Positions 16,825-36,991 of a stretch of DNA of 36,991 bases are shown piece by piece. Location of the stretch: assembly GCA_903936865.1 (NCBI GenBank), contig CAIZXK010000738.1, forward strand, positions 1 through 36,991. The letters are read 5' to 3'. The notes under the pieces are model-generated. The model was not told the origin of the DNA, ran no database searches, and saw only the letters and a list, made by a program, of their open reading frames with translations. This DNA comes from an uncultured Bacteroidales bacterium. Its GTDB lineage: Bacteria > Bacteroidota > Bacteroidia > Bacteroidales > JACABE01. Made by a program: the position numbers and the translations under genes. The first letter of the stretch is position 1; the number at the start of each line of letters is the position of its first letter.

Positions 16825-18294
16825 TTAAAATCTAAAATAAATAAACGGATTAAATGAGCCGGAAGTTAAATACATGATACTTAGTAGCAATAATGTAAAT
16901 AAAGCTGAAAAATATGTAATTTCGGATAAATACAATAACCCAGGGCGCAATAATTTTGAAATAGTTAGGAATTTTGGGATTAAAGGAGTTGAAAATAATA
17001 TACCCAAAGCAAATGCAATTAAAACATTAGGTTGCAAAAACTCGCTTATATGTAAAACATCAGATGTTCTATAAAAAAACATGCTTTTCAAATATTCTAT
17101 AGAGCCGGACAATGTCTCAGCCCTAAAAAAAACCCATGAAATTGACACAAAAAACAAGACATAAAAGTGACGAAATAGTTTTGGTAAATTATGTAACCAT
17201 TTTTCTACTCCAATTCTTTCCATCGAGAGAAAAAATCCATGAAACAGCCCCCAGATCAAGAAATTCCAACTGGCGCCATGCCATAATCCACAGAGAGAAA
17301 AAACGATGAACAGGTTTAAGTATGTTTTTATACCTGATCCCTTACTTCCGCCAAGAGGTATGTATAAATAATCACGAAACCAGGTTGAAAGCGAAATATG
17401 CCAACGACGCCAAAATTCTTTAATTGAGGTGGATATATAAGGATAATTAAAGTTTTCGGAAAATTCGAAACCAAACATTTTGCCTAGCCCAATAGCCATA
17501 CATGAGTATCCTGAAAAATCGAAATATATTTGCAGGCTGTAGGCAAGTATTCCTATCCAGGCTATAATTGTTGGTAATTCATTACTATTAATTAAAAAAA
17601 TCTGGTCTGCTATTTTGCCCAATGTATTGGCAATTAATACTTTTTTTGCTAATCCAATAATAAATCTTTGTATCCCTTCTACAAACTGGTCAAATTTTAT
17701 AGTATGATTATTTAGCTGCTTGTCAATTTCAGAATATCGAACTATAGGGCCGGCAACCAATTGAGGGAACATAGTAACAAAAGTAGCAAACTTTATAAAA
17801 TTCCTGTTTGCGGCAACATGCCCTCTATAAACATCAATTGTATAGCTCATAGATTGGAAGGTGTAAAAACTGATTCCAAGTGGAAGGCTGATTTTAATCA
17901 GACCATCAAGCTTCAAATGGCTCAAATGCAATAAATCAAGGACTTGTATTATATTGTCGGTAAAAAAGTTGAAATATTTAAAAAAGCCTAGTAAGGAAAG
18001 GTTGGAAATAATAGAAACCGTTAACCAAAATTTCTGTAAATTGCTTCTATGTCCATTTGGAATAAGCTGAACTATAGGTTTTTGATTCAAGCCACCTGCG
18101 ATTAATAATCCTGAAAAATAATCAACCACTATTGTAGTGAGCATTATCCAAATGAGATAGTTTTCTCCAAAAAAGTAAAAGAAAAGACTGCTTAGGAGCA
18201 AAAATGGAAACCTAAGGCTTTTTCTTAACGAATGAAATACTACCAATACAATTGGAAGAAAAAAGAATATGAATACTATTGAACTAAAAATCAT
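16825..18294 (-). CDS. MBOAT family O-acyltransferase (AlgI-like), copy 1
   Basis: A 489-residue polytopic membrane protein of the AlgI/DltB branch of MBOAT (PF03062). Key segments are PQLVAGPIVRYSEI at 177-190, EFWRRWHISLSTWFRDYLYI at 293-312, and GLWHGASWNFLIWGLFHG at 336-353. H339 in LWHGA is the expected catalytic histidine. These proteins pass an acyl group from a cytoplasmic donor across the inner membrane to an extracytoplasmic partner. The partner here is the AlgJ/AlgX-like protein encoded 3 bases downstream. A second, clearly related MBOAT gene lies at 20699-22150. Confidence 0.92.
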   Translation of the reverse strand: MIFSSIVFIFFFLPIVLVVFHSLRKSLRFPFLLLSSLFFYFFGENYLIWIMLTTIVVDYFSGLLIAGGLNQKPIVQLIPNGHRSNLQKFWLTVSIISNLSLLGFFKYFNFFTDNIIQVLDLLHLSHLKLDGLIKISLPLGISFYTFQSMSYTIDVYRGHVAANRNFIKFATFVTMFPQLVAGPIVRYSEIDKQLNNHTIKFDQFVEGIQRFIIGLAKKVLIANTLGKIADQIFLINSNELPTIIAWIGILAYSLQIYFDFSGYSCMAIGLGKMFGFEFSENFNYPYISTSIKEFWRRWHISLSTWFRDYLYIPLGGSKGSGIKTYLNLFIVFSLCGLWHGASWNFLIWGLFHGFFLSMERIGVEKWLHNLPKLFRHFYVLFFVSISWVFFRAETLSGSIEYLKSMFFYRTSDVLHISEFLQPNVLIAFALGILFSTPLIPKFLTISKLLRPGLLYLSEITYFSALFTLLLLSIMYLTSGSFNPFIYFRF

Positions 18295-20698: not shown

Positions 20699-22150
20699 TT
20701 AAAATTGAAAATAAATAAATTGTTGATCGCTTTTAAATTGACCTAAATAGACAAATACAACTAACAATACAATGTAAATCGTCCAACGGGAATATTTGTG
20801 TAAGGTTTCTATCTGAAGTACATGCTGTTTTCTACGTTGTACCCATTCGATGGATATCAATAGAATAATCAATATTAACGGAATAGATTGCAACCAGGTT
20901 AGCAGAATTTCAGGTTTAAGCAACAGGTTGTGTACTATATTAGTAATAAAGTTGAGAAATCTTCTGATGCTATCAGAACGAAAAAAAATTAATGCAAAAA
21001 CAACCAATGAAAAAGTAAGTATCATTTGAAAAAATTCTTTTATTGAAGGGAATTTTTGGTTAACAGCCACGATTTCAGAATATTTTCCTTTTCCTTTTGT
21101 TAACATTTGAGGGAGATAATAAAGCCCATTTAGTAAGCCCCAAATGATATATGTCCAGTTGGCACCATGCCAAAAACCACTTAGTACAAAGGTTGCTAAA
21201 ATATTCCTTACCCGTTTGGTTTTAGAAACTTTACTTCCTCCCAAAGGAATAAATATATAGTCCCGGAACCAGGTTGAAAGTGAAATATGCCATCTTTGCC
21301 AAAATTCTCCAATATTTCTCGAAAAGAAAGGATAGGCAAAATTCCTCATCAGGCTAAATCCAAATAATCTTGCTGTACCAATTCCTATATCGGAGTAACC
21401 TGAGAAATCACAATAAATTTGAAAAGCAAATAAAATGGCACCAATAAGTAAGGTAATGCCTGGTGTTGAAGTATATGTAGGTGCATCGAAAATCAAATCT
21501 ACCTGAACTGCTAGTGTATCAGCTATCACTACTTTTTTTATCAACCCCCAAAGTATTTGTCTGAGACCGTCTTTTGCTTTTTCACTATCAAAAAACCTTT
21601 TGCGTTCGAATTGTGGTAATAAATTTGAAGCCCTTTCGATGGGACCAGCGACCAATTGTGGAAAAAAACTGACAAATGCCAGAAAAGAGATTAAGTCTTT
21701 GGTCGTTGATATTTGCCGCTTATAAACATCAATCGCATAGCTCAGGGTTTGAAATGTATAAAAGCTAATTCCTACTGGAAGTATGATATTTAAAGAGCTT
21801 TTGTGAAAAGTCATTCCTACTTGAGCTCCTGCTTCAATAAATGAATCAACAAAAAAATTGTAATATTTAAAAAAACCAAGCAACCCTAGGTTTGCAACTA
21901 GACTGATACCCAACAATATGTTGCGATGTGTTTGTTTATCACTTTTTTGTAACAATAAACCAACGGTATAATCTACCATTGAACTAAAGAACAACAAGGA
22001 TAAAAAACGCCAATCCCACCAGCCATAAAAAATATAGCTTACTACCAGCAGAAAAAAGTTTTGTAGTCTGATGGATTTATTGAAAACATACCAATAGAGA
22101 ATGAAAACTGTTGGTAAGAATATAGCAAAAGTTAAAGAGTTGAAAATCAT
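20699..22150 (-). CDS. MBOAT family O-acyltransferase (AlgI-like), copy 2
   Basis: A 483-residue polytopic protein, paralogous to the MBOAT at 16825-18294. Conserved parts are PQLVAGPIERASNLLPQFER at 164-183, EFWQRWHISLSTWFRDYIFI at 282-301, and SGFWHGANWTYIIWGLLNG at 324-342, with H328 the expected catalytic residue. The second histidine seen in copy 1 (FHG) is an asparagine here (LNG). It should deliver an acyl group across the inner membrane. The gene 8 bases downstream encodes an SGNH-like protein with a membrane anchor, the expected acceptor-side partner. The AlgI/PatA/DltB family call is firm; the acyl group is not known. Confidence 0.92.
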   Translation of the reverse strand: MIFNSLTFAIFLPTVFILYWYVFNKSIRLQNFFLLVVSYIFYGWWDWRFLSLLFFSSMVDYTVGLLLQKSDKQTHRNILLGISLVANLGLLGFFKYYNFFVDSFIEAGAQVGMTFHKSSLNIILPVGISFYTFQTLSYAIDVYKRQISTTKDLISFLAFVSFFPQLVAGPIERASNLLPQFERKRFFDSEKAKDGLRQILWGLIKKVVIADTLAVQVDLIFDAPTYTSTPGITLLIGAILFAFQIYCDFSGYSDIGIGTARLFGFSLMRNFAYPFFSRNIGEFWQRWHISLSTWFRDYIFIPLGGSKVSKTKRVRNILATFVLSGFWHGANWTYIIWGLLNGLYYLPQMLTKGKGKYSEIVAVNQKFPSIKEFFQMILTFSLVVFALIFFRSDSIRRFLNFITNIVHNLLLKPEILLTWLQSIPLILIILLISIEWVQRRKQHVLQIETLHKYSRWTIYIVLLVVFVYLGQFKSDQQFIYFQF

Positions 22151-23717: not shown

Positions 23718-24806
23718 CTAAATCACTTTACGAATCCAAATACTTCCTCCGCTATTCTTGAAACAGTAGGGCATTTTCGAGAAATATTCCTTGTGATTTT
23801 TATGAATAAAATCGGGGAAAAGCATGATTTCGAAATTATTATTAAACATCAAAAATGATCTTATGAAATAAACTTCATTCCAGCTTCTTCCTTCGAAAAC
23901 CCAATTTTGAGGATATTCAAAAGGGTAAAATATATCATGAAAATGTATAATAACTCCTTTGTTTAATGATGGTAAAATATTTAATATAAGATAATTAACA
24001 TCACTTCTGGTTTTAACAACATGTGAGCTATCTATAAACAAAATATCATCTTTTTTAAGCTTTTTAAAAAAAGAAAGATTGATTTGTTGAAGATTTTTTT
24101 CAATAATTAGAACTTTCCCTTTATCTTTATCAGATAAAAGGGAAAATAATAAGTCAGCATAAGGTTCAATAAACGTTACGTCAACATCTGTTCGCTTTAA
24201 TTGATCTATTGTGTCAAGTATTAGCGCCGATGAAAACCCAGATCCTACTTCAATTATTTTGGATGGACAAAAATGCCTGATAAATGAATATAAAATTATA
24301 CCGTCTGAGAATGAAAAAGCTGGGTTTTGGAAATAATATCGGTAACTATTAACCTTTTTCTCCTGAAATGGGATTTCCTTGTAAAATTTTGAAAATTCAT
24401 TTATTAACTGAAATTGATAATTAATGTTTAGCTCTATTCCTGGTAATTCCATGACACTTTTTTCATCCCATATTTCTTGTTCTCTTTCCTTTATTTCTTC
24501 AATGTTAACAACAGGCGAGTAAAAATGACCTGCTGGATAGCACATGTGTCGTTCATTTTCGTTTGGTTTGCGTCCTTCAAATCTTCCAAATAAATGATAA
24601 TGTTTTAAGGATGGCATTCCTGAAGCTTCTACATCAGGATTGTTTGCTAAATAGTACTCTTCATCGAAAAATAATTTATTATTTACCTTATCATATTCTC
24701 TTATTAATCTAATCCATCTGCGAATGAAGCCATTACTACCTAATGATAAAAAAAACAATAACTTAGTAAAAATAATTGAGATGTTATTGTTTTGATTTTT
24801 TTTCAT
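23718..24806 (-). CDS. NPDV-repeat plus class I methyltransferase
   Basis: A 362-residue protein. Residues 46-82 are a single copy of the NPDV-type repeat (FFDEEYYLANNPDVEASG at 46-63, ending in FGRFEGRKP). Residues about 165-345 are a SAM-dependent methyltransferase like Methyltransf_24: SAM motif IIEVGSGFSS at 184-193, acidic end of a later strand FIDSSHV at 257-263, and HFHDIFYP at 288-295, which probably binds metal or substrate. Likely role: O-methylation of a sugar in the polysaccharide. The shared repeat links it physically or evolutionarily to the two repeat-bearing glycosyltransferases of the locus. A 374-base gap upstream makes it a plausible first gene of a transcription unit. Confidence 0.82.
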   Translation of the reverse strand: MKKNQNNNISIIFTKLLFFLSLGSNGFIRRWIRLIREYDKVNNKLFFDEEYYLANNPDVEASGMPSLKHYHLFGRFEGRKPNENERHMCYPAGHFYSPVVNIEEIKEREQEIWDEKSVMELPGIELNINYQFQLINEFSKFYKEIPFQEKKVNSYRYYFQNPAFSFSDGIILYSFIRHFCPSKIIEVGSGFSSALILDTIDQLKRTDVDVTFIEPYADLLFSLLSDKDKGKVLIIEKNLQQINLSFFKKLKKDDILFIDSSHVVKTRSDVNYLILNILPSLNKGVIIHFHDIFYPFEYPQNWVFEGRSWNEVYFIRSFLMFNNNFEIMLFPDFIHKNHKEYFSKMPYCFKNSGGSIWIRKVI

Positions 24807-25180
24807 GTTTTTTGTAATTATTATTTAATTATTATTGTCTGGATTGTTTATGTAAAAAAGCAATCAAATTATGAGACCAAAGAATCAATTGATAGTAGAA
24901 TATGATTATTTATAATCACTTTAGTATTTATAAAATTACAAAAGTGTTTTTTTGCTACATCATAATCATAATATTATGGTTTAATTGCTTTTAATTGCAA
25001 ATAATATGTTTGACCCATCAACATTAAATGTATTTTTAAAGCATAGATAAAACATAAAGGCTATTTATTTAATTACAACTTCCAAATTTTCCTTGGTGAT
25101 AACTATATTTAAGGCTGAGAAGTATCCTTTTATTTTAAAATTTTATATAGAAACTAAAGGTTCAACTAATGAAAAAAAAA
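24807..25180 (-). other. 374-base intergenic gap, no gene seen
   Basis: Strongly A/T-rich, with stops in all frames and no recognisable coding remnant, RNA gene or stable hairpin. It separates the 1556-residue fusion gene from the repeat-bearing methyltransferase gene and is the longest clean gap in the window. An internal promoter is plausible, but I find no exact TAnnTTTG -7 element of the Bacteroidota type on the minus strand. Confidence 0.5.
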
Positions 25181-28100
25181 TTAAATTGCTATTGGCCGGG
25201 CAATCACATCTTCTAATGCCACGGTTTGAAATAAATCCTTGTATTTTTGCAACATAACCTCTTCACGAAATAAAATTCCAACAGCTTTATTTGCTTTTTC
25301 TCCTAGCGCTTTGGACTCGTTTGGATGATCGAGCAGATACCCGATTTTATCAACCAATTGGTGGATATCGCCCGGTTTGTAAAATAAAGCTGTTTCGCCA
25401 TCTGCCAATTGCTCAGAAATTCCAAATACAGGTGTTGTTACTATTGGAAGTGAGGATGCCATTGCTTCAAGAATTACTAATGGAAATGATTCATTGTATG
25501 AACAACATACAAAAATATCAGAGGCACTATAATAATCCATGATATTTTCCTGATTATCCAGAACCATAATATCCTCCATCTGATTAATCTCATCAATTAC
25601 CTGATGGTAATATTCATCATTGGTATTTTTGCCAATAATTGTGAAAAACAGGTCATCTCGCGATTCTAATAAAATCTTTGCAGCTTTTACAAAATCAATT
25701 TGTCCCTTTCTTTCGCAAACTGTTCCAATAATAGTTACAATAGTTTTTGTTGGCAAATTAAGTTTCTCGCATAACTGAATTTTATTTTTGGGGAATTCAG
25801 TTTTCACATCAATTCCATTGTAAATAAAATCCATATTTGCAAAATGATTGTACTTTTCAAACAACTTCATGCTTGATTTACTGACGAAAAGATTGCGGTT
25901 TGGTTTTAGAATAGTTGTTGAAATCCATGGCATTAGGTTGTTAAAAACAGGATGCTTATTGTAATATTCAAATAAGTCAATACTTTCGTGAATCCCCCAA
26001 ATGGAAGGGATTTCTGCAAAGTAGGAAGCATCGATAGCCCAAAAGTTATCCAGTGTATTTGCATAAACTAAATCAACTTTGTTCTTAGTCAATTGATTAC
26101 TAATTCGTTCAACTAATACAGAATAACTTTCCTTGTTAAGCGAAGAATAAATCTCCATAGTTTTAACTGCAATACCTTCATTCTCAAATAATTTTCTCAA
26201 AGGACCATCTTCAATACTAATGATTTCAATAGACACAAAGCCTGTTGCTTTAAAATACTTTGCTACTTTAAACATAATCAATGGTGCTCCTTCAAAATTA
26301 AGGTTATGCGTAAAAAATGCCATTTTTAATTGCCTGCTTTCTTTATTAAAGAAACGCAACCTGTTATTTCTGTTTATTTCAGTACTAAAAAATTCCTCTT
26401 TGTGTTGATTGATGTTATAGTAGGAATCGGTAAATTTTTCATGCTTTACTATAAGATTGAGGTCATCCGTTAAATAACTGAGTGGCTTTTCTGAACTCTT
26501 TCTTGAGGCACCTTCATGGTGTAGGATAATTGCATATGGATTATACACTATCCTTTTTCCTCTATTCAAAATCCTTAAACACAAATCAACATCGTTAGAT
26601 GAAATTTTAAAATTGAGCTCATCAAAACCTCCTGCTAAAAAAAACTCGTTTTTACTTATCATCAGGCAGGCAGCAGTAACTGCAGAATAGTTACGTGCAC
26701 ATATGTCGAAATTAAAATAAACATTTCCATGGCTACCAGTAAAAGGATGATGTGCTGGTTTTGGATCCATAGTTACAATTACTCCTGCATGCTGAATTCT
26801 TCTGTCAGGAAATAATGCTTTTACACCTACAATTCCTACTCCGGGCATTTTACAGTATATCAACATTTGTTCTATCCAATCTTCGGAAATAATTTCTGTA
26901 TCAGAGTTTAAAAAAATAAGGAAATCACCTGTTGCATTTTTAACAGCCAGATTGTTAATTCTGGAATAGTTGAATTCATTGTTTATTCGTTTATTTGTAA
27001 TCACTTTAATGTCCATATCTGCCATTTTGCCCAAAAAGTCAATGGTTTCCAAGTCATCACTTTCATCATCAGCTATAATGATTTCATAATTTTTATAGGA
27101 TGATTTTTTGATGGAATCAATACATTTCTGAGCCAGTATATGACCATTACGTATGGGAATAATAATTGAAACAAAATCATTAAAGGCTATTGAAGGATTT
27201 AAATTATAAATACCAATTTTGCTTTCTATTGCAAATTGGGGTAAAGAAACTTTTACCCAATTAATTCCGATATTTATAAGATGATTTTGAATTGCCACCA
27301 TACCTGCATTCACACTTCCTTCTTTTTTTGAAAGTTGCGTGGAGTGATTTCTCCAATGGTACAAAATAAGCGGAAGATGATCAATACTTTTTGAAAAGTG
27401 AGTAGCACGTAAAAAGTAGTCATAGTCCTGGCTACCATTCAAGTCAGAATTAAACCAACCTGTTTTTGAAATTATTTCCTTGTTGTATACGATGAGGTGC
27501 CTCAAGTAACAAAATGATAATGCTAACTCAGGCGACCAGTCTGGTTTAAATGCTGGAAAAGAAGCAATTCCATTGTGATCGATGGTTCCATCATCAGTGT
27601 ATAAGATGTCCGATTTTCTTTTTTGTAAAAAATTGGCAACTTGCAACAAAGCATCTTTTTCCATGATATCATCATGATCCATGAAAACAATATAATCACC
27701 GGTAGAAAGGCGAATGCCCTCGTTTGAAGCATTTGACACTCCTAAGTTTTTAGGAAGTCTTTTGTGCTTAACCTTTGGATTTCCGCTGAAAAGGGTTAAC
27801 AGTTTCTCAATTTCGGGCTCTGAATGATCATCTATTATGATTAATTCCCAATGTTCATAAATTTGGCTTAAAACAGAATTTAATGATTTGTTCAAATATT
27901 CTTTTTCAGGATTATAAACCGGGATGATGATGCTGAACTTAGGTAAAAACGAAAAATCTTGTTGCTGCTCAAGCAAAAATCTGATCATTTTGGCTGATAA
28001 GCTGTTCCTGTGAAGGTACTTATGATAATCATCAGGAAATAAGTTTGTTTCTGATTTTAATTTAATGGTTTCAACTATATCTGTCTCAGGAAATTGGATA

Positions 28101-29851
28101 GACTTAAATGGAGTTTCTTCAATTATGTCGGGGCTGATTTGCAATCGGAATTCAGCTTTTCCATGTAAAATGAAATGAAGCAATGGGTTCATCCCTGATT
28201 CAAGAACATCTTTATATTTATCAAGGTAAAATGAACTGCTGAATAATTTACTTGGGTTTCGTCTTTCAAATCCACCATAATTCAAATAATGTGTTATGGC
28301 TTTCATTCCAGAAAGTTTCACATCAGGGTTGGTCTCTAAATAATAATTTTCATCAAAAAGCCCACTTTGTGCGATTTCAGTTTCATACGATTGGCTTTCC
28401 GCCTCAGAGATTTTATCTTTAGCAGGGGTTTGCAGGCTGGGTTTTTGAATTTCAATCTTTTTAATTGTTTCTTTCAATTCACGAACCTCATCCAATAACT
28501 TTTGCTTTTCATCTGACTCCTGTTTTAATTCCAAAAAGGTGTTTTGCAAGATTTCTTCTTTTAATACCAAAGCATGTTCGAAAACTTCTTTGCCCAATTT
28601 CAAATATTCAAGTTCAATCCTCATTTCATCAAACTCTAGAATGCCAATTGCTTTCAAATCAATAAAAATCTGAGATTCATTTGTAACAAATAAGTAAACC
28701 TGATTTTCGACAGATTTGGCATTACTGCTGATTTCAAAATTAACATTAACAGTTTTACTGGATAATAAGAATTGGATGGTATTGATTTTAACAAGATTGT
28801 AGTCGTTAAGCGGATCAAACCTCAACTGAGTAACCTTTTTTGGGCAATTAAGTTTGAATTCCAACAGCTTGCTGTGCTTAAAAACCACCAGTCGCAAGGA
28901 GTTATTTTCATTATAATCAGTTGCCTTTTCTCTAAAATAAAGCTGCGCATAATGCTGCGAATTCAGGTTTTTTGTAACATTCAACTGCCAGTCCCAAAAA
29001 AATGTAATCATCCCCCAATTGATCTTTATAGGCTTTTCGATTGGATGGTTTAAAACACCGCTAAATTGTTGAGCTCTTTTTTCCAGAGCATCATACAACT
29101 TGATAATATCTGGAAAATACAATCCTAATAACTCCGGAATTTCTGATTGTGAGGCACGAACGTTGAAAATATCTTTGTCGATTATCTGAACTTTCGGCAT
29201 CGAAAGTTGAATTCCAAATTTTTGATAAAATCCGGAGATCAATACTGAAGGATTTTCAACAATCTGGCTTATATTTATGAGTAGGCAGCGATCAGCGTTA
29301 TTTTCGTAAAACGTTAATATATTGCGGTTATAGTGTTTCCATAATTCAGCGGCAATTTCGGGGTTTTCCCAGATTACCTCATCGGTACCTCTGCGATAGA
29401 GCGATTCGATGACTTCCCACGGAGCACGGTAGATAATCACAAAACAAGCATCGGGAAGTAACGAATTCCAAAAGTCAAGAAACAAGGTAGTTCTGGGGTC
29501 TTTCCAACCCCAAACCGGGTTTTTTGACTTGGTTTTAATCAGATCCATTGCCCTGTGACGCAGGTTTTCACTTACAGGAATCTGTGAAATAAGTGTTAAC
29601 CCATTTATTTCAATTCCTTGTGAAAGCAATACTTTTTGATGAAAATCAACAATTTCCAGATCTTCAAAATGGCCTTTTTCGTTTCCAGTTCCTTTGTCCA
29701 CAAGGTGTTCTCCCATATTTACCCCACCAGCTTGTAAAATAGAGGCGGTTAATGATGTTCCCGAACGATGCATTCCAACAACAATTATGGGTGCTGATTT
29801 ACGTGGAAACTGAGAATTTTTGTCTTTTATCATCATTTTCTTATTTGGCAT
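25181..29851 (-). CDS. sulfotransferase - accessory module - coiled coil - NPDV repeats - GT2 - GT2 - GT4 fusion
   Basis: A 1556-residue multidomain enzyme. Domains in order: P-loop sulfotransferase about 21-250 (GMHRSGTSL at 26-34, IIYRAPWEVIESLYRRG at 139-155); accessory module about 270-420 (AQLYF at 302-306, LRFDPLNDYNLVKI at 343-356); a Glu/Lys-rich coiled coil about 420-470; two NPDV-type repeats at 499-535 and 537-571; GT2a about 638-860 (IDDHSE at 673-678, MDHDD at 724-728); GT2b about 893-1115 (ADDESDD at 927-933, NSDTE at 982-986); and a GT4 domain about 1176-1540 (GTVCERKGQ at 1376-1384, ESFPLVILEAMASSLP at 1454-1469). It could build and sulfate a short oligosaccharide on one scaffold. 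Its first 11 bases overlap the end of the upstream sulfotransferase gene, indicating translational coupling. The ATG at 29851 is used; later ATGs at codons 6 and 7 are also possible. Confidence 0.9.
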   Translation of the reverse strand: MPNKKMMIKDKNSQFPRKSAPIIVVGMHRSGTSLTASILQAGGVNMGEHLVDKGTGNEKGHFEDLEIVDFHQKVLLSQGIEINGLTLISQIPVSENLRHRAMDLIKTKSKNPVWGWKDPRTTLFLDFWNSLLPDACFVIIYRAPWEVIESLYRRGTDEVIWENPEIAAELWKHYNRNILTFYENNADRCLLINISQIVENPSVLISGFYQKFGIQLSMPKVQIIDKDIFNVRASQSEIPELLGLYFPDIIKLYDALEKRAQQFSGVLNHPIEKPIKINWGMITFFWDWQLNVTKNLNSQHYAQLYFREKATDYNENNSLRLVVFKHSKLLEFKLNCPKKVTQLRFDPLNDYNLVKINTIQFLLSSKTVNVNFEISSNAKSVENQVYLFVTNESQIFIDLKAIGILEFDEMRIELEYLKLGKEVFEHALVLKEEILQNTFLELKQESDEKQKLLDEVRELKETIKKIEIQKPSLQTPAKDKISEAESQSYETEIAQSGLFDENYYLETNPDVKLSGMKAITHYLNYGGFERRNPSKLFSSSFYLDKYKDVLESGMNPLLHFILHGKAEFRLQISPDIIEETPFKSIQFPETDIVETIKLKSETNLFPDDYHKYLHRNSLSAKMIRFLLEQQQDFSFLPKFSIIIPVYNPEKEYLNKSLNSVLSQIYEHWELIIIDDHSEPEIEKLLTLFSGNPKVKHKRLPKNLGVSNASNEGIRLSTGDYIVFMDHDDIMEKDALLQVANFLQKRKSDILYTDDGTIDHNGIASFPAFKPDWSPELALSFCYLRHLIVYNKEIISKTGWFNSDLNGSQDYDYFLRATHFSKSIDHLPLILYHWRNHSTQLSKKEGSVNAGMVAIQNHLINIGINWVKVSLPQFAIESKIGIYNLNPSIAFNDFVSIIIPIRNGHILAQKCIDSIKKSSYKNYEIIIADDESDDLETIDFLGKMADMDIKVITNKRINNEFNYSRINNLAVKNATGDFLIFLNSDTEIISEDWIEQMLIYCKMPGVGIVGVKALFPDRRIQHAGVIVTMDPKPAHHPFTGSHGNVYFNFDICARNYSAVTAACLMISKNEFFLAGGFDELNFKISSNDVDLCLRILNRGKRIVYNPYAIILHHEGASRKSSEKPLSYLTDDLNLIVKHEKFTDSYYNINQHKEEFFSTEINRNNRLRFFNKESRQLKMAFFTHNLNFEGAPLIMFKVAKYFKATGFVSIEIISIEDGPLRKLFENEGIAVKTMEIYSSLNKESYSVLVERISNQLTKNKVDLVYANTLDNFWAIDASYFAEIPSIWGIHESIDLFEYYNKHPVFNNLMPWISTTILKPNRNLFVSKSSMKLFEKYNHFANMDFIYNGIDVKTEFPKNKIQLCEKLNLPTKTIVTIIGTVCERKGQIDFVKAAKILLESRDDLFFTIIGKNTNDEYYHQVIDEINQMEDIMVLDNQENIMDYYSASDIFVCCSYNESFPLVILEAMASSLPIVTTPVFGISEQLADGETALFYKPGDIHQLVDKIGYLLDHPNESKALGEKANKAVGILFREEVMLQKYKDLFQTVALEDVIARPIAI
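28139..28357 (-). repeat. two NPDV-type repeats inside the fusion protein
   Basis: Residues 499-535 (LFDENYYLETNPDVKLSG at the start, then GGFERRNPSK) and 537-571 (YKDVLESGMNPLLHFILHGK in the core). They are back to back, like copies 4-5 and 6-7 in the 950-residue protein, and sit just before the first GT2 domain in both proteins. Confidence 0.88.
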
Positions 29852-30614
29852 GGTTACAATTATTCCAAACGAATTTATCCCCTAAAAGTTCGGCTAGTTT
29901 TTTACCGTCCCCTATGAAATTGGCGGCAAGTCTTTCTCTTATTTCTGTGTCTAAAGTGGGGTAGGCATTGGTATTTTGCGGAATAAGATTATCAGGCATA
30001 ATTTTGCGGATTCCCAAAAACCGATACAGTTCAACCAGTTCGTTTTCAGGATTTTCGAAAAAATTTTCGCTTTTAATAAAATACATTTGCTTAAGACGAT
30101 AATATCGGAGCCACCTTGAAATTTGCTGAAAGTACATTCCCCTTGCGACGTATGTAAAACTTCTGTATGGCTTGCTTTGCGTTATTTGGTTGTTGATTAA
30201 TTTTTGCTCTTCATCAGATGTTCTTTCAGGCTCTTTTGCGATTGCTTCTTCAAATGAATTAAGAGGTTCTGTTTTATACTTCTTTTCATGCCAGAAATGC
30301 GAGTAAGCTCTGTCAACAGGATTTCTCAACATCACTATTAATTTTACTTTGGGTAGATGTTTAGCCACTCTAGCTGGCACCAGCGGATGAAACAAATAAT
30401 AAGGAGAGGCTTCACCTGTTAGCTTTCTTTCAAAAATGGGTTTTTGAGGGAATTGATTTTTATACCAGTTCCACCCCATCGAATAATCGAGTGAAAAAAA
30501 CTGGATCTCTTTCTGTAAAGGTAAAATCAGATCAGGATGCTGCCTCAAATAATGGAACAACGATGATGTACCGCACTTTTGTGCGCCTATAATCAGGAAA
30601 TCTGGTTTTGGCAT
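29841..30614 (-). CDS. PAPS-dependent sulfotransferase, NDST/heparan-sulfate type
   Basis: A 257-residue protein that is a compact Sulfotransfer_1-type domain. The 5'-phosphosulfate loop is IIGAQKCGTSSLFHYL at residues 8-23. KEIQFFSLDY at 35-44 matches the region with the catalytic Lys-Glu in NDST-like enzymes. The 3'-phosphate region is MLRNPVDRAYSHFWHE at 95-110, with R97 and S105. A later YVARGMYFQQISRWL segment (155-169) is the usual Y-x-x-x-L-type substrate helix of this family. It most resembles glycan O-sulfotransferases. Its stop codon lies inside the start of the 1556-residue gene (11-base overlap), so the two sulfotransferases are probably made together. Confidence 0.9.
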   Translation of the reverse strand: MPKPDFLIIGAQKCGTSSLFHYLRQHPDLILPLQKEIQFFSLDYSMGWNWYKNQFPQKPIFERKLTGEASPYYLFHPLVPARVAKHLPKVKLIVMLRNPVDRAYSHFWHEKKYKTEPLNSFEEAIAKEPERTSDEEQKLINNQITQSKPYRSFTYVARGMYFQQISRWLRYYRLKQMYFIKSENFFENPENELVELYRFLGIRKIMPDNLIPQNTNAYPTLDTEIRERLAANFIGDGKKLAELLGDKFVWNNCNHAK

Positions 30615-30769: not shown

Positions 30770-31501
30770 TCACTTTTGCAAAAAGGTAATGTAATCATTA
30801 AATCTTGGTACCCCAATTTTTTCCTTTTCATTCCAATACTGTAATTGGTCAATAATTGCAAGTCCATTTTTTAATGCCAGATTCCTGACCATTTTTTTTG
30901 AAATGTTCGACCGCCATCCATCGGTATCATTGGTTCGGCACATCGAAATTGTTCTGTAAAACCGATTTCCAGGATTGCCAAAATGTCGCATAAATCCGAG
31001 CCAACGGAAGAAATGATTCCTGCCGGAGTGGTGGATTACTGCTCGTCCTCCGGGCTTAAGTACCCTAAAAATCTCCCGCATGTATGAATTAATCACATAT
31101 TTTTCGATGTGTACAAAGGTGTCGAAGGACCAGATGAAATCAACCGAAGCATCTTTTACACCTTCCAAAGTTTTGCCATCGTTAATCACAAAAATAGTAT
31201 TTGACCGGTTAACAAATAGGTTCCTGCAAAAATCGATACAATTCGGACTTAAATCTACCAGAATTAAAGTTGTAGCAGATTTTGCAAGAAAAACCGACCA
31301 TCGCCCATGACCAGCACCAATTTCAAGAACAGTGTCATTTTTCCGGATATTTGAATGAATCAGATTTTGATACAACGATTGCTTCCAATATTCATAATCT
31401 AGTTTGCATTTAATGGCCTGGCCATCCCATTCGTCGCCATTTTTTTCCCAGTCATGCTTTTCGTTCCAGATTTCTTTGTTGATATTTATTGAATTTTTCA
31501 T
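30770..31501 (-). CDS. SAM-dependent class I methyltransferase
   Basis: A 243-residue protein. The N-terminal KHDWEKNGDEWDGQA at 15-29 is a common leader in glycan-cluster methyltransferases. The SAM motif is VLEIGAGHGRWS at 58-69, the strand 2 acid is VDLSP at 82-86, motif II is DFIWSFDTFVHI at 121-132, and motif III is LKPGGRAVIHHSG at 148-160. It probably methylates a sugar or lipid-linked intermediate. It lies 16 bases after a sulfotransferase gene. The first 90 or so codons have a decayed second copy at 33889-34164, three genes upstream, showing that this gene family has been duplicated and partly lost within the locus. Confidence 0.85.
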   Translation of the reverse strand: MKNSININKEIWNEKHDWEKNGDEWDGQAIKCKLDYEYWKQSLYQNLIHSNIRKNDTVLEIGAGHGRWSVFLAKSATTLILVDLSPNCIDFCRNLFVNRSNTIFVINDGKTLEGVKDASVDFIWSFDTFVHIEKYVINSYMREIFRVLKPGGRAVIHHSGRNHFFRWLGFMRHFGNPGNRFYRTISMCRTNDTDGWRSNISKKMVRNLALKNGLAIIDQLQYWNEKEKIGVPRFNDYITFLQK

Positions 31502-31517
31502 TCAATTTCCGAATTAA

Positions 31518-32627
31518 TTAAGATGATTTTGTTTTTGTAAAATAATTCAGAATTTGTTTTAGCAAGGCCAATCTACTCATTCCATTGAAAGGATTTTTAA
31601 GTCTGGTTTTCAGTGCCATGTTTTCATCTGACAAAGTGGAAATATTTTTTTTTGCATTTTCGATATGGTTGCGCAGGATAACAATTTCATTGCCTAAACT
31701 TTCGGCAATTACTTCTATTTGCATTCGGCTAAATGTAAGCGTTTCAGGAATCGGATCAGGTTTCCGGATATCGCATTGATAGCGGTGCTTTTCGGGGATT
31801 TGTAAATTAACCCGCTCGATTGTTTCTCTAAGAACTAACCAGATAGACTCCTGAACTTCTATAGGAGGCAGGAGTTTTTTCGGTATGATGTCCGGTAATC
31901 TTTCGCATAAAGGATCTGAGAAAAACCGACCTGATGGACCAAGTATTTTATTTAGCGAAAGTTGAAAGAAATGTTCCGACCATGTTAATGAGCGGTTTAT
32001 ATGATCAACAGGCTGAAAAGAAAATACATCAACCGGTAGATCAAGCCATCCGGCAACTTCGTCAATCAATCTGTCGGAGCAAATACTGTAATTTCTAATG
32101 GTGAGTGTAACGTTTTTACATTTTTTCAGTCGGTTTAGCAAATGCTCAACTTGAAATATTATATCCCACCCAATTTCAGGATGCTCATGCAAATTGTTCA
32201 ATGAAATATCATGAACACCTCTTCGTTTGACACGCTGTTGCATGACTGAAACTGCTCTTTCAATTGGGTTTCGAATAAAAAATAGCAACTGGATGGTGTC
32301 AAAACCATATTTTGCCGCAACTTCTTCAAGATAATCTATTGCATTAGATTTGGTGAAAAACTTAAAGATACTTTCGCTGGTGAATAATAATGCTTCTCCT
32401 AACTTTAATTGGTTTTTTGCCAGTTGACTTTCAAAATGTTCTTTAGATTCGAATAGATTAACTGCATTGCCCGAAGTGATGGCGTTGGGATTGTCATTCA
32501 GCCAATCTTCGCCATAAGCGTAAATGATGCCATGTTTTGCCAAAGATTCACGGTTCAACCTCAAACAAGCTTGAATCCAGCTTGTTCCGGTTTTTCCGTG
32601 GCCGATATGTAAGAAAAGTGTAGCCAT
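31518..32627 (-). CDS. P-loop sulfotransferase family protein
   Basis: A 369-residue protein. The start LFLHIGHGKTGTSWIQACLR (residues 4-23) is the PAPS phosphosulfate loop. LLFFIRNPIERAVSVMQQRV at 114-133 is the 3'-phosphate-binding region with R119. The last 70 residues include a helix of coiled-coil type (about 305-345), then a basic C-terminus. A ready reading is a carbohydrate sulfotransferase acting in the cytoplasm. It begins one base after the stop of the upstream sulfotransferase gene (TAAAATG), so the two are translationally linked. The two are related in their first 40 residues but differ clearly beyond that, so they may have different acceptor positions. Confidence 0.8.
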   Translation of the reverse strand: MATLFLHIGHGKTGTSWIQACLRLNRESLAKHGIIYAYGEDWLNDNPNAITSGNAVNLFESKEHFESQLAKNQLKLGEALLFTSESIFKFFTKSNAIDYLEEVAAKYGFDTIQLLFFIRNPIERAVSVMQQRVKRRGVHDISLNNLHEHPEIGWDIIFQVEHLLNRLKKCKNVTLTIRNYSICSDRLIDEVAGWLDLPVDVFSFQPVDHINRSLTWSEHFFQLSLNKILGPSGRFFSDPLCERLPDIIPKKLLPPIEVQESIWLVLRETIERVNLQIPEKHRYQCDIRKPDPIPETLTFSRMQIEVIAESLGNEIVILRNHIENAKKNISTLSDENMALKTRLKNPFNGMSRLALLKQILNYFTKTKSS

Positions 32628-32628
32628 T

Positions 32629-33801
32629 TTAAGTATTAGATTTTTTAAATAATTCCGAAGACCTATAAAGTTTTATTGCTTGGGATAAGATGAATTTCAA
32701 TATCCTGAATCGTTGAGTGTAAGAAAGTAATGTATTTTGCTTATTTATTGTTCGCCAAAGTTCTAAAATAATAGTCTTTCGATGATTTAAAGGTAAATGC
32801 AATATGTTTTTTTTAAGCCAATCAAGCGTTTGCTGGCTCCAAATATCAGCATTAGGTTTCAAATCCTCATCCAAAAAACGATAATCCTGAAGCGCAAACT
32901 CACTACAAAGCCAATTTACATCTTCCGACAAAGTATCCCAAACTTTTTTGCTCATGTCGCGAGATAGCATAAATTTCTGCCCCGGCATTTCCAATAAAAG
33001 CTTCATCACCTCAAATTTCTTTTGTAGTTGCGGAAGGTAATCGGAAGTATGATTGCAGTTGCGATTTATGGCATTTAGCAATACAAAAGTTTCGTAGTTA
33101 GTTGCAGGATTTTCGTGCAGAAGAACAGGTTTTATTTTGTCCGGTAAATATTTATCAATAAGAGCCAATAATGCTCCCGCCGGGCCAAAAGGGTGGCAGA
33201 TGGCATCTTCATACCTCACTACAGTAATGTGCTCCTGTCCTATAACTTCGGATAAAACTGTAATCAGATTTCGGTATAAATGTGTTTGTTGAAGTTTACG
33301 CTCAATAACTTTTTTTTCCTGTAATATAGAGTTATAAACTTTGGCCAATAACGAACTTCGAAATCGTGAAACAGGATGGCGGCACATCAAAACCACCCGG
33401 ATATTTACTTCCGGATGAGTAATTTTTGTTAACCAGACTTTCAGATTTCTGAGTTCATCTATGTCAAAAAGTGAAATATCTTCCCCTGAGATAATCAGCG
33501 TTTCACCAATAAAGTCGGCTATTTGCGCTTCAATTTGCCGTTGATATTCTTGATGAAGTTCTTGGATTGCCTCCCTGTTTGTAATGCCAAAATTAACGTT
33601 AATGTGGTATTTTTCAGGTTCCTTACAAAAAAGGCTGTAAATGGGTATCGAATGGTTGCTGATAAGGTTGTCGCCTGCTATAAAAGCAGGATATAAAATA
33701 CCGTTATCAGATAATTTTGCCCGTTCTAAGTAAAGGGTATTTTGAATGGTGGTAGAGGCGGTTTTGTGAACGCCGATATGCAGAAAGATATTTTTGATCA
33801 T
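32629..33801 (-). CDS. P-loop sulfotransferase family protein
   Basis: A 390-residue protein with IFLHIGVHKTASTTIQNTLY at residues 5-24, a PAPS-loop variant in which the usual T-G-S/T is T-A-S-T. VVLMCRHPVSRFRSSLLAKV at 136-155 is the 3'-phosphate-binding region. LIISGEDISLFDIDEL at 102-117 matches the strand after the loop in this family. It would sulfate a glycan in the cytoplasm. It is the first intact gene after the decayed methyltransferase copy, and its stop is one base before the next sulfotransferase start. Base composition here looks clearly less AT-rich than in the left half of the window. Confidence 0.78.
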   Translation of the reverse strand: MIKNIFLHIGVHKTASTTIQNTLYLERAKLSDNGILYPAFIAGDNLISNHSIPIYSLFCKEPEKYHINVNFGITNREAIQELHQEYQRQIEAQIADFIGETLIISGEDISLFDIDELRNLKVWLTKITHPEVNIRVVLMCRHPVSRFRSSLLAKVYNSILQEKKVIERKLQQTHLYRNLITVLSEVIGQEHITVVRYEDAICHPFGPAGALLALIDKYLPDKIKPVLLHENPATNYETFVLLNAINRNCNHTSDYLPQLQKKFEVMKLLLEMPGQKFMLSRDMSKKVWDTLSEDVNWLCSEFALQDYRFLDEDLKPNADIWSQQTLDWLKKNILHLPLNHRKTIILELWRTINKQNTLLSYTQRFRILKFILSQAIKLYRSSELFKKSNT

Positions 33802-34160
33802 TAAAAATAGATGGGTTGGTGGGATTTAGTTGTGAAATATTTTAAGTTCATAGGTAGTTTGCTTTAATGTTAGTTCTTAAAAAAAAGGTAGCAAAATTCG
33901 ATACAAGTCGAGTTTAAATCTACCAGATTTGATTTTCAAGCAGATTTTGCATAAAAAACGACCATTGTCCATGTCATGCATCAATTTCGAGAAAAGTGTC
34001 CTTTTTCTGGATATTTGAAGTAATCAGATTTTGAACCAACGTATGCGTCCATTATTCATAATATACTATGCATTTTCGTGTTTATCCATACCATTCCTCG
34101 TCATTTTTCTCCAAGTCATATTTTTCATCCCTTAGGATTTTATTAATGTCTTTTGAATTT
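33802..34160 (-). other. 359-base gap filled mostly by a gene remnant
   Basis: About 272 of these bases are the decayed methyltransferase fragment. The remaining 87 bases next to the sulfotransferase start (33802-33888) are A/T-rich and show no gene, hairpin or recognisable promoter. Confidence 0.6.
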
Positions 34161-34164
34161 TCAT
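33889..34164 (-). pseudogene. decayed 5' fragment of a methyltransferase gene, paralog of the gene at 30770-31501
   Basis: Read on the minus strand, this stretch follows codons 1 to about 91 of the intact methyltransferase gene at 31501-31229, base for base with many substitutions, a few indels and in-frame stops. Landmarks kept are the GAGGAATGG equivalent of GDEWD, the AAATATCC...AAAGGACACT segment before the SAM motif, the GGACAATGGTCG stretch matching GRWS, and the final CGAATTTTGC matching the CIDFC region. The 3' two-thirds of the gene are missing. The fragment's ATG overlaps the TGA stop of the pyruvyl transferase gene (ATGA), so it once was the next gene of the operon. Confidence 0.85.
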
Positions 34165-35285
34165 ACGATTATTGTAAGTTTTTTTTTTAGAGAATCTATT
34201 TTTCCGCACTTTTTCAAAACATGGTCAATTCCGTTTTTGGCGAGGAAATCAACATAATTTGTAAAGAGTTGGGGATAGATTTGGTTGTATTTTGAATAGT
34301 CAGCCTTCTTGTAAAGTTGTTTCAGGTTTTTAAACATCTTTACCTCCGATATATTTATAGATGGTAGTTTTAAAAATTCAGCAAGCTCAATTGTCCTTGA
34401 ATCGTGAGTGACCCACAAAGCCGGAATTCGTTGTTGCAATGCCATCATATTTCCATGAAACCTCATCCCAAAAGCGAAATCAATGTTGCTTAAAGCATTT
34501 TGCCAGGCATTAATTTCATAAAATACCTGTATCCTGTAATTAATGAAATCAATGACCTTTTTGGTTTTAAATTTTGATTTTGAATATATTAGCTCAAAAT
34601 AACTACTATTTGCAAAGTTCGTTATTTCGTCATCTTTCAAGCACAAGGTTGCGTTATGATGTTGAGCCATTAAGTCGCTACCCTCTTTAAGTGCTAAATC
34701 GAAAAGATGTATCGAATCATGGTGATCGTTTAAATAATAGGCACTTCTGAATTTTTCAGGCAGTTTTTTTTTGTCAATTTTAAAATCTATGTCACAATTC
34801 AAAAAGTTACTTGGACAGCCAATAACATCTACATTTTTTATTCCCAAACTATTAAGCAATTCTGCAGTATAAAATCCTCTTACTCCGATTGTTGTTGATT
34901 TGGTTGATAGTATTTGCAGAAATCTCAATAAATCCGGTGTAATCTTAACCTTGTCGGACAGCGAGGCTGCCTGAGTGCCCAAACCAATGCAAATAACCGG
35001 AATTTTAATTTTTTCTAACAGCTTTATCTGTGCCTGAACTGAAAACATTTCGCGAATGTAATTGGCGGCTGGAATAATTAATGCATCATATTTCTCGTTC
35101 ACCATTTGAGGATTAAAATCCTCACGAAATTCAATTTCATCATGAAGGTTACCAAGGTGATTTTGAACAGCATGACCAATGATCAAATTTCCGGAATTGG
35201 CATTCCGGGCAATAAACTTTGCCTTGCTATCACCCTTGATAGCTTTATTAAAAGAAACAGCTCCCCACAATAGGTAGTTTTTCAT
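34161..35285 (-). CDS. polysaccharide pyruvyl transferase family protein
   Basis: A 374-residue protein of the PS_pyruv_trans family (PF04230), which includes CsaB and WcaK-like ketal pyruvyl transferases. Visible features are NSGNLIIGHAVQNHLG at residues 30-45, ICIGLGTQA at 98-106, IGVRGFYTAELLNSLGI at 133-149, GCPSN at 156-160, and AFGMRFHGNMMALQQRIPAL at 271-290, the usual donor-binding helix with R275 and H277. It would add a pyruvate ketal from phosphoenolpyruvate to a sugar of the polymer. Some family members have other or unknown roles, so the reaction is likely rather than certain. Its stop codon overlaps the start of the decayed methyltransferase fragment. Confidence 0.83.
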   Translation of the reverse strand: MKNYLLWGAVSFNKAIKGDSKAKFIARNANSGNLIIGHAVQNHLGNLHDEIEFREDFNPQMVNEKYDALIIPAANYIREMFSVQAQIKLLEKIKIPVICIGLGTQAASLSDKVKITPDLLRFLQILSTKSTTIGVRGFYTAELLNSLGIKNVDVIGCPSNFLNCDIDFKIDKKKLPEKFRSAYYLNDHHDSIHLFDLALKEGSDLMAQHHNATLCLKDDEITNFANSSYFELIYSKSKFKTKKVIDFINYRIQVFYEINAWQNALSNIDFAFGMRFHGNMMALQQRIPALWVTHDSRTIELAEFLKLPSINISEVKMFKNLKQLYKKADYSKYNQIYPQLFTNYVDFLAKNGIDHVLKKCGKIDSLKKKLTIIV

Positions 35286-35656
35286 TTACCAACTTTTAAA
35301 GTATTCTAAATTCAACCAATAAATGCAACTTTTAGGAAGGTATCATGTAGTGAATATTTCTATAATTAATATGCTATGTTTCAATACCTGGCTTGTTTAT
35401 TCCACTCATCACCATATCTTACCCTATATTGACCATGTTTCAATTCCTTTTGTTGTTGTTCTTTGAAAAAGATTAAGTTGATAGGCTGAATTTAATTATT
35501 AGATAACCGTACTTAATATTAATTGCAATTTGCAGCAAAAGAAAGGTTTTCTAAGGATTTTATGCAATATGATGTTTTTAAGTAAAATTGCATCATTAAA
35601 TCCCATTCGGACTTTAACTAACAATTTGACGATAGCGAATTGTGTTTTCTATTGCA
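35286..35656 (-). other. 371-base gap with a possible short gene remnant
   Basis: No open gene. On the minus strand around 35388-35460 one frame reads KHGQYRVRYGDEWNKQARY followed by a stop, which resembles the GDEW leader of the methyltransferase family seen at 30770-31501 and in the remnant at 33889-34164. The match is short (about 20 residues), so this could be chance. The rest is A/T-rich and shows no hairpin or promoter I can support. Confidence 0.3.
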
Positions 35657-36991
35657 TTAGTAAAGTTTCCTGCTTATAGTAAAAAGCCTGTTCAGCATTA
35701 ACTCCCCGATTTTTTTTGCTGAAAACTGCTCATTTATGGTTTTATATGCTTGTTCTCCAATTTTTTTTACCAACGGTTTGTCCAGTGAAATTGATTTCAT
35801 TTTTGCCGATGCCTCCTCCAAATCCGGTGATGCCCAATATTGATGTTTCTCATAAGGACCTAAATCCTTGCCGATTTGATTGAGGGTGAATGATATTGGG
35901 ATGCAATTATCTGAAGTCATATACTCAGTATTCCCTGACCAATTTGTTAGCATTGCAACTTTTCCGCGAGCCATAGCCTCAGCTGGCCCTAGCCCAAATC
36001 CTTCAGAGCGATGCAGAGATAGAAAGCAATCAATTGATGCGAGTAAGCAGTTTGTTTCCTGTCGGGTAAGATGTTTCTTGATGACAAGGATGTTTTTATA
36101 ATCACCGATGGATTTGTTTAACTCTTTCAACGTTAAAGCATCAGGATTGTTTACTTTGATGGCAAGCAATACACTTGAATCGTCAGCTTTAAATGCATTT
36201 TTAAATGCATGAATAGAACCAAAAGGATTTTTCCTTTCAATAATACTATGAACATCAAACATACTAAGGAAAACAAAGGCATTTTCAGGAATATTGAAAG
36301 AAGCACGGTTTGAAAGACTTTTTACTTCTCTGATATTTACTGCATTAATAACATGAGGGATGGTAATTACAGGTACAGGTGATAATAAGGAAACTGCTTT
36401 GTTTACAAAAGACGAAGGAACCCAGATTTCATCAACCAAATTAAAGGAATTTTTCCATTTTTCAGGAAATTTAGATAATTCCCAAGCCCAGAAACCAATT
36501 GTATATTTTTTTTCAAAAAAATCTTTGCCAAGGTTTTTTATTACAAAAGGAGTAAAATCTGCATTGATTTGCAAAATGTTGAAGTCGAAAACTGCTTTTG
36601 TCATTTCTCTATACTGCATTGTCAAATCGTTCATTTTCGATGGGTTGCCTTTTTCAAAATTGAAAACTCCAAAAGGGATATTTGCTGCTTTAAGTGCTTT
36701 GGCATTGCCACGTGCAGCTTCTCCAATGCCCATTTCAGCACGTATATAGGATATAATGTTTACACCAAAATTAGGTTGTTGGAGTATTTTTGGAACAAAT
36801 TGAACAGACTCTTTTTCTTTTTGTAGTTTGGTTTTTCTTCCTGCATAAAAATCATAGTTGTTATTGGGCGAAAAGTAATTACTGCTGTGCTTGACGGAAC
36901 AATCTTCTTTTTCGAGAGAAAGGTTTGGATTATAATAATAATCTCCTTCTTTAAAAAATTTGCCCCAACGTGCCCACATAGCTTTTTCATC
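35657..36991 (-). CDS. GT2-GT4 fusion glycosyltransferase, 5' end cut by window
   Basis: The reading frame runs through the window edge: four more codons (DEKA) precede the first ATG at 36979 without a stop. The first residues, ending WARWGKFFKEGDYYYNPNLS, match the tail of large GT2 rhamnosyltransferase-like proteins (compare HERWGTALKQDPAYNPNLSL in the 950-residue protein). So the true start is outside and a GT2 domain is mostly missing. Residues from about 70 on are a GT4 domain: GVNIISYIRAEMGIGEAARG near 76-95, EIWVPSSFV near 190, a donor-binding RSEGFGLGPAEAMARGKV segment near 335-352. It probably adds two sugars in the cytoplasm. A 371-base gap follows before the pyruvyl transferase gene. 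Confidence 0.87.
   Translation of the reverse strand, partial: DEKAMWARWGKFFKEGDYYYNPNLSLEKEDCSVKHSSNYFSPNNNYDFYAGRKTKLQKEKESVQFVPKILQQPNFGVNIISYIRAEMGIGEAARGNAKALKAANIPFGVFNFEKGNPSKMNDLTMQYREMTKAVFDFNILQINADFTPFVIKNLGKDFFEKKYTIGFWAWELSKFPEKWKNSFNLVDEIWVPSSFVNKAVSLLSPVPVITIPHVINAVNIREVKSLSNRASFNIPENAFVFLSMFDVHSIIERKNPFGSIHAFKNAFKADDSSVLLAIKVNNPDALTLKELNKSIGDYKNILVIKKHLTRQETNCLLASIDCFLSLHRSEGFGLGPAEAMARGKVAMLTNWSGNTEYMTSDNCIPISFTLNQIGKDLGPYEKHQYWASPDLEEASAKMKSISLDKPLVKKIGEQAYKTINEQFSAKKIGELMLNRLFTISRKLY

Follow-up and report, generated by a model that had tools for sequence, protein, structure and literature searches.

The integration of DNA by a single crossover, i.e., by insertion-duplication, leaves a truncated gene copy. 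Gene remnants are already known from mosaic polysaccharide clusters: the O-antigen clusters of Salmonella groups B1 and D1 carry remnants of wzy, and a partial wzy duplication is present in group D3 (PMC3715488). The cluster described here is a further case. It lies on a contig of an uncultured Bacteroidales bacterium, and the window, i.e., the whole stretch of DNA that was analyzed, comprises 36,991 nucleotides. Within it we identified two decayed pieces of methyltransferase genes, both of which are read as 5' stubs without function at the joints of a shuffled polysaccharide cluster.

All genes considered here are located on the minus strand. In the order of transcription, a glycosyltransferase gene (35657-36979) is followed by a gap of 371 nt, a gene for a polysaccharide pyruvyl transferase (34161-35285; PF04230, E = 3e-26), a gap of 359 nt that contains the first of the two pieces (remnant 1), the genes ST-A (32629-33801) and ST-B (31518-32627), the intact methyltransferase gene MT (30770-31501), ST-C (29841-30614) and a gene for a protein of 1556 amino acids (25181-29851), in which a sulfotransferase is fused to two GT2 domains and one GT1 domain. 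A sulfotransferase-like fusion gene also comes after MT in a related locus, L041. The initial annotation had placed three sulfotransferase-type genes between remnant 1 and the intact gene. There are only two, ST-A and ST-B, and their assignment holds in part: both encode P-loop proteins that carry P-loop-like HIGxxKT motifs at their N-termini and are remotely similar to sulfotransferases, but neither reaches the cut-off of any Pfam model. The best indications are a match of ST-A to PF13469 (E = 0.016) and one of the ST-B paralogue from contig C227 to PF00685 (E = 7.6e-4), each below the cut-off. ST-C, downstream of MT, is a sulfotransferase by a strong match to PF00685 (E = 9.5e-21).

Contig C227 belongs to the same genome and carries paralogues of both ST-A (51% amino acid identity; a homologue in genome G001 shares 53%) and ST-B (62%). 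They occur together there, separated by two other genes and without an MT of this family. This arrangement differs from that in the window and shows that ST-A and ST-B genes have been reshuffled within one genome. The second cluster (L038, 322-5805) features an ST-A extended at its C-terminus by fusion (616 aa), a TylF/pyruvyl-transferase fusion, another methyltransferase and the ST-B paralogue. In the window, a decayed internal piece of a glycosyltransferase gene (24857-25080, minus strand, in the gap 24807-25180) is related to codons ~245-319 of the gene at 35657-36979, with a local alignment score of 50 and a maximum of 34 in 500 shuffles. A repeat of about 40 residues, NPDVKxxxxNPLxHYxxxGxxEGRxPS, occurs in several fused glycosyltransferases (12600-15452, 23718-24806 and 25181-29851) as well as in L038 (7322-7567) and L041 (12381-14015); internal repeats in such proteins are evident at the DNA level (14743-15114 versus 15031-15402, 70%). 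Two genes resembling those for membrane-bound O-acyltransferases (16825-18294 and 20699-22150) have short stretches of ~80% DNA identity in common, which suggests duplication or conversion.

In the gap between the pyruvyl transferase gene and ST-A, a decayed duplicate of the methyltransferase gene had been recognized at 33889-34164 and matched to some 91 codons. Our analysis confirms this duplicate and extends it: remnant 1 occupies 33877-34170 on the minus strand and corresponds to about codons 1-98 of MT. In a local alignment with 31209-31507, 230 of 302 columns are identical (76%), and the score of 309 is far above those of 300 dinucleotide shuffles (maximum 91, mean 66), the yardstick for chance identity in A/T-rich DNA against which the match was to be checked. 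A blastn search of the whole genome (779 contigs) found the pair of remnant 1 and MT as the sole pair (E = 1.9e-53), and nhmmer likewise matched remnant 1 (E = 2.2e-46). Matches of 25-27 nt in genomes G001 and G016 were judged to be due to chance. Remnant 1 and MT are on the same strand and colinear, and their homology extends from ~8 nt before the ATG to near codon 98 of 243; the remainder of the gene has no counterpart in remnant 1, as had been stated. The stops and indels reported earlier are also present: a deletion of 1 nt lies directly behind the ATG, several further indels and frameshifts follow, and in-frame stops appear whichever frame is read. Remnant 1 ends soon after SAM motif I and cannot encode the methyltransferase fold. 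Its ATG (34164-34162) indeed overlaps the TGA of the pyruvyl transferase gene (34163-34161) as ATGA. The letters of this motif are partly fixed by that stop codon, and the alignment independently puts MT codon 1 at the same place; former membership of remnant 1 in the operon rests on this overlap. Judged by its sequence, remnant 1 is an ordinary pseudogene scrap that retains only the 5' part of a methyltransferase gene and has no function. Comparison of the spacer that separates it from ST-A (33802-33876) with the rest of MT, the L026 MT and the DNA upstream of the ST-A paralogues yielded nothing clearly beyond shuffles.

The intact MT encodes a class I SAM-dependent methyltransferase of 243 amino acids that scores above the Pfam cut-offs of Methyltransf_25 and Methyltransf_11. 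Relatives of this protein are rare. Among ~390 genomes of the phylum and ~390 of the order, clear ones are present only in G591 (55% amino acid identity) and G739 (42%), the protein from L041 is 55% identical, and a scan of the genomes of 84,980 species returned a single close relative, L026 from MAG Ja1_bin-3933 (86%); none was found on viral contigs. L026 4841-5635 aligns with 31552-30758 at 88.6% nucleotide identity, whereas identity in rpoB between the two genomes is only 74%, as between other families of the order (83% among genomes of the same genus). MT thus spreads horizontally. A dN/dS of 0.20 between MT and L026 indicates that the intact gene is under selection. The similarity to L026 continues for ~50 nt upstream of MT, to 31552 and into the 3' end of ST-B. 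The ST-B paralogue on C227, on the other hand, aligns by tblastx no further down than 31548, and DNA similarity is fading already at ~31640. The ancestry of the DNA therefore changes at ~31550, and ST-B ends in former MT leader DNA: the upper part of this leader (31502-31552, minus strand), which is common to MT and L026, now codes for the last ~11 residues and the stop of ST-B. In the genome that carries L026, ST-A and ST-B have no match at E ≤ 1e-5.

In order to place remnant 1 in time, we compared the informative sites common to MT, L026 and remnant 1. The remnant is joined with MT by 17 of them and with L026 by 13, i.e., it is about equally far from both, and a recent copy of the adjacent MT was rejected on this ground. 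Its split appears to be about the same age as that of MT and L026, or earlier; in a tree test with an outgroup, none of the three topologies stood out (AU p = 0.36, 0.11 and 0.73). The changes unique to remnant 1 are spread evenly over codon positions 1, 2 and 3 (17/20/18), while differences between the functional copies MT and L026 accumulate at the third position (19/16/47; chi-square p = 0.014), and the third-position excess expected of a functional past is not seen in the changes of the remnant. Accordingly, most of its separate history passed without constraint: the constrained fraction is estimated at 0, with an approximate likelihood limit of ~0.6. Remnant 1 has thus probably been without function for the greater part of the time since it split off, up to ~60% of constrained history being within the limit. 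The flat pattern, together with the estimate of 0, speaks more for truncation at birth than for the late decay of a long-lived gene.

We consider it about an even bet (roughly 50%) that remnant 1 was cut off at birth when the ST-A/ST-B block joined in and then drifted, and that joining of this kind took place at least twice. It would have lost its 3' half at the moment when the block landed between the pyruvyl transferase gene and a full-length MT. An insertion or a single crossover inside the 5' part of MT would produce a truncated copy behind the old neighbor, the new block and a full-length copy, and the truncated copy would afterwards have drifted without constraint. The window has this layout, with a 5' truncated copy, the block and the full-length copy following each other in direct orientation and the change of ancestry at ~31550. 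That the stub and the insertion of the block stem from one event is what we infer, and that event may have been either illegitimate recombination or a single crossover. 5' stubs can also arise by ordinary deletion of a 3' half.

The initial annotation had envisaged that the block came to lie beside an older methyltransferase gene, which then decayed. In its full form this would mean that a complete methyltransferase gene stood behind the pyruvyl transferase gene, was functional for a long time, became redundant once the block arrived with a divergent MT, and decayed by mutation and deletion of its 3' part. The ATGA overlap, the split of remnant 1 at or before that of MT and L026 (17 versus 13 sites) and the horizontal mobility of MT all fit this course of events, and a decayed remnant does lie next to a joined block. 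The long functional life, however, is at odds with the missing third-position excess (17/20/18), which disfavors function for more than ~60% of the separate history, and we regard this course of events as possible but rather unlikely. We find it less plausible still, and unlikely, that illegitimate recombination placed a copy of the start of MT (~300 nt) further upstream, nonfunctional from the outset and unrelated to the arrival of ST-A and ST-B. The 5'-only extent of remnant 1, its flat codon-position pattern and its sharp start at the first codon of MT are in line with such a local partial duplication. Against it, remnant 1 is as distant from the resident MT as from L026, which would make the copy as old as the split of these two, and the ~50-nt leader of the intact MT is absent in front of the remnant.

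A repetition of the joining event, as included in the preferred reading of a stub left by the incoming block, is suggested by a second and older piece upstream of the pyruvyl transferase gene. Remnant 2 (~35286-35470, minus strand) is a 5' piece, about codons 5-62, from the same methyltransferase family, and its part from 35339 to 35460 is firmly supported. Translation of the gap in which it lies (35286-35656) gives KHGQYRVRYGDEWNKQARY...KYSL..., resembling the L041 protein around GDEWDGQARY; tblastn with this protein detected remnant 2 at E = 2e-4 (GDEWNKQARY for GDEWDGQARY). A profile of three MT genes matched 35460-35339 in nhmmer with 13.9 bits (E = 1.2e-4), while the best score in 2000 shuffles of the gap was 1.2 bits. 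The similarity can be traced as far as the site that corresponds to MT motif I (~35286), such that remnant 2 ends about at the start of the pyruvyl transferase gene, which stands between the two remnants. Over the same 5' stretch its identity to MT is only 54%, compared with 75% for remnant 1, so that it is either older or derived from a deeper member of the family; in the latter case it could represent something other than a previous state of the same MT gene. About 70 nt before remnant 2, the segment 35548-35642 (minus strand) bears weak similarity to the leader and the upstream gene end preceding the L026 MT (score 27, maximum 23 in 1000 shuffles) and may have belonged to an older MT leader. 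Within the window, nhmmer revealed no 3' piece of an MT gene. An origin of the remnants from a single gene that an insertion had cut into a 5' and a 3' half was rejected, because both are 5' pieces. Two 5' stubs out of two are weak support for a common mechanism. It is doubtful, though conceivable, that the process was serial, new biosynthetic genes being placed repeatedly before the full-length MT, with the earlier copy surviving each time as a dead 5' stub behind the gene that precedes it. If this were true, the stubs in the series of remnant 2, the pyruvyl transferase gene, remnant 1, ST-A/ST-B and the intact MT would constitute a dated record of the addition of polysaccharide-modifying genes, the oldest stub being furthest upstream.

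Two further explanations carry very little weight. Retention of remnant 1 for a function, e.g., as a regulatory spacer, an internal promoter or a small RNA for ST-A/ST-B, might be considered in view of a 359-nt gap amid an otherwise tightly packed cluster, but the gap has no Rfam match, its promoter-like and terminator-like matches are at the level of shuffles and the substitutions in remnant 1 look neutral, all of which makes such a role highly improbable. An artefact is practically negligible even for a genome in 779 contigs with an estimated contamination of 4.4%, as the alignment score refutes chance similarity, a divergence of 24% is impossible for a sequencing duplicate, and paralogues of the cluster genes, which occur both on a second contig of the bin and in a genome of the same genus, speak against assembly error or a mis-binned contig.

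Relatives offer no view of the cluster at an earlier stage. Searches of 393 genomes of the same order and 396 of the same phylum returned no match to the pyruvyl transferase at E ≤ 1e-25, and in these genomes no intact MT stands behind this pyruvyl transferase gene. The state before insertion is therefore seen in no relative, and the order of events is unobserved. Nor was a donor block with the same junction to MT found elsewhere, the ST-A/ST-B paralogues on C227 being without this MT.

On its own, remnant 1 would be an ordinary gene remnant. Additional interest lies in the series of stubs, which might record the order in which genes were added. We take the two remnants to mark joints between gene blocks in the rebuilding of the cluster, and both stubs and the spreading MT taken together document, on a small scale and in checkable form, the assembly of a cluster for a sulfated or pyruvylated surface polysaccharide from shuffled parts in a Bacteroidota-like lineage. 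For annotators, the message is that gaps in such clusters can contain relics that help to order events.

When compared with known systems, the intact MT is a regular class I SAM-dependent methyltransferase above the curated cut-offs of its families, whereas remnant 1 stops at about codon 98. With respect to insertion-duplication, the copies in the window differ by 24%, the junction is an old one, and neither a circular donor nor an element can be recognized; what the locus has in common with it is the succession of a 5' truncated copy behind an old neighbor, inserted DNA and a full-length copy. In the case of Salmonella wzy, the functional replacement is not part of the cluster, and an intact copy of the gene survives in related serogroups, which reveals the order of events (PMC3715488), whereas here the full-length MT lies two genes away and the earlier state is kept by no relative. 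As with the wzy remnants (PMC3715488), however, a nonfunctional piece of a polysaccharide gene stands among the intact genes of a mosaic cluster and marks its earlier gene content.
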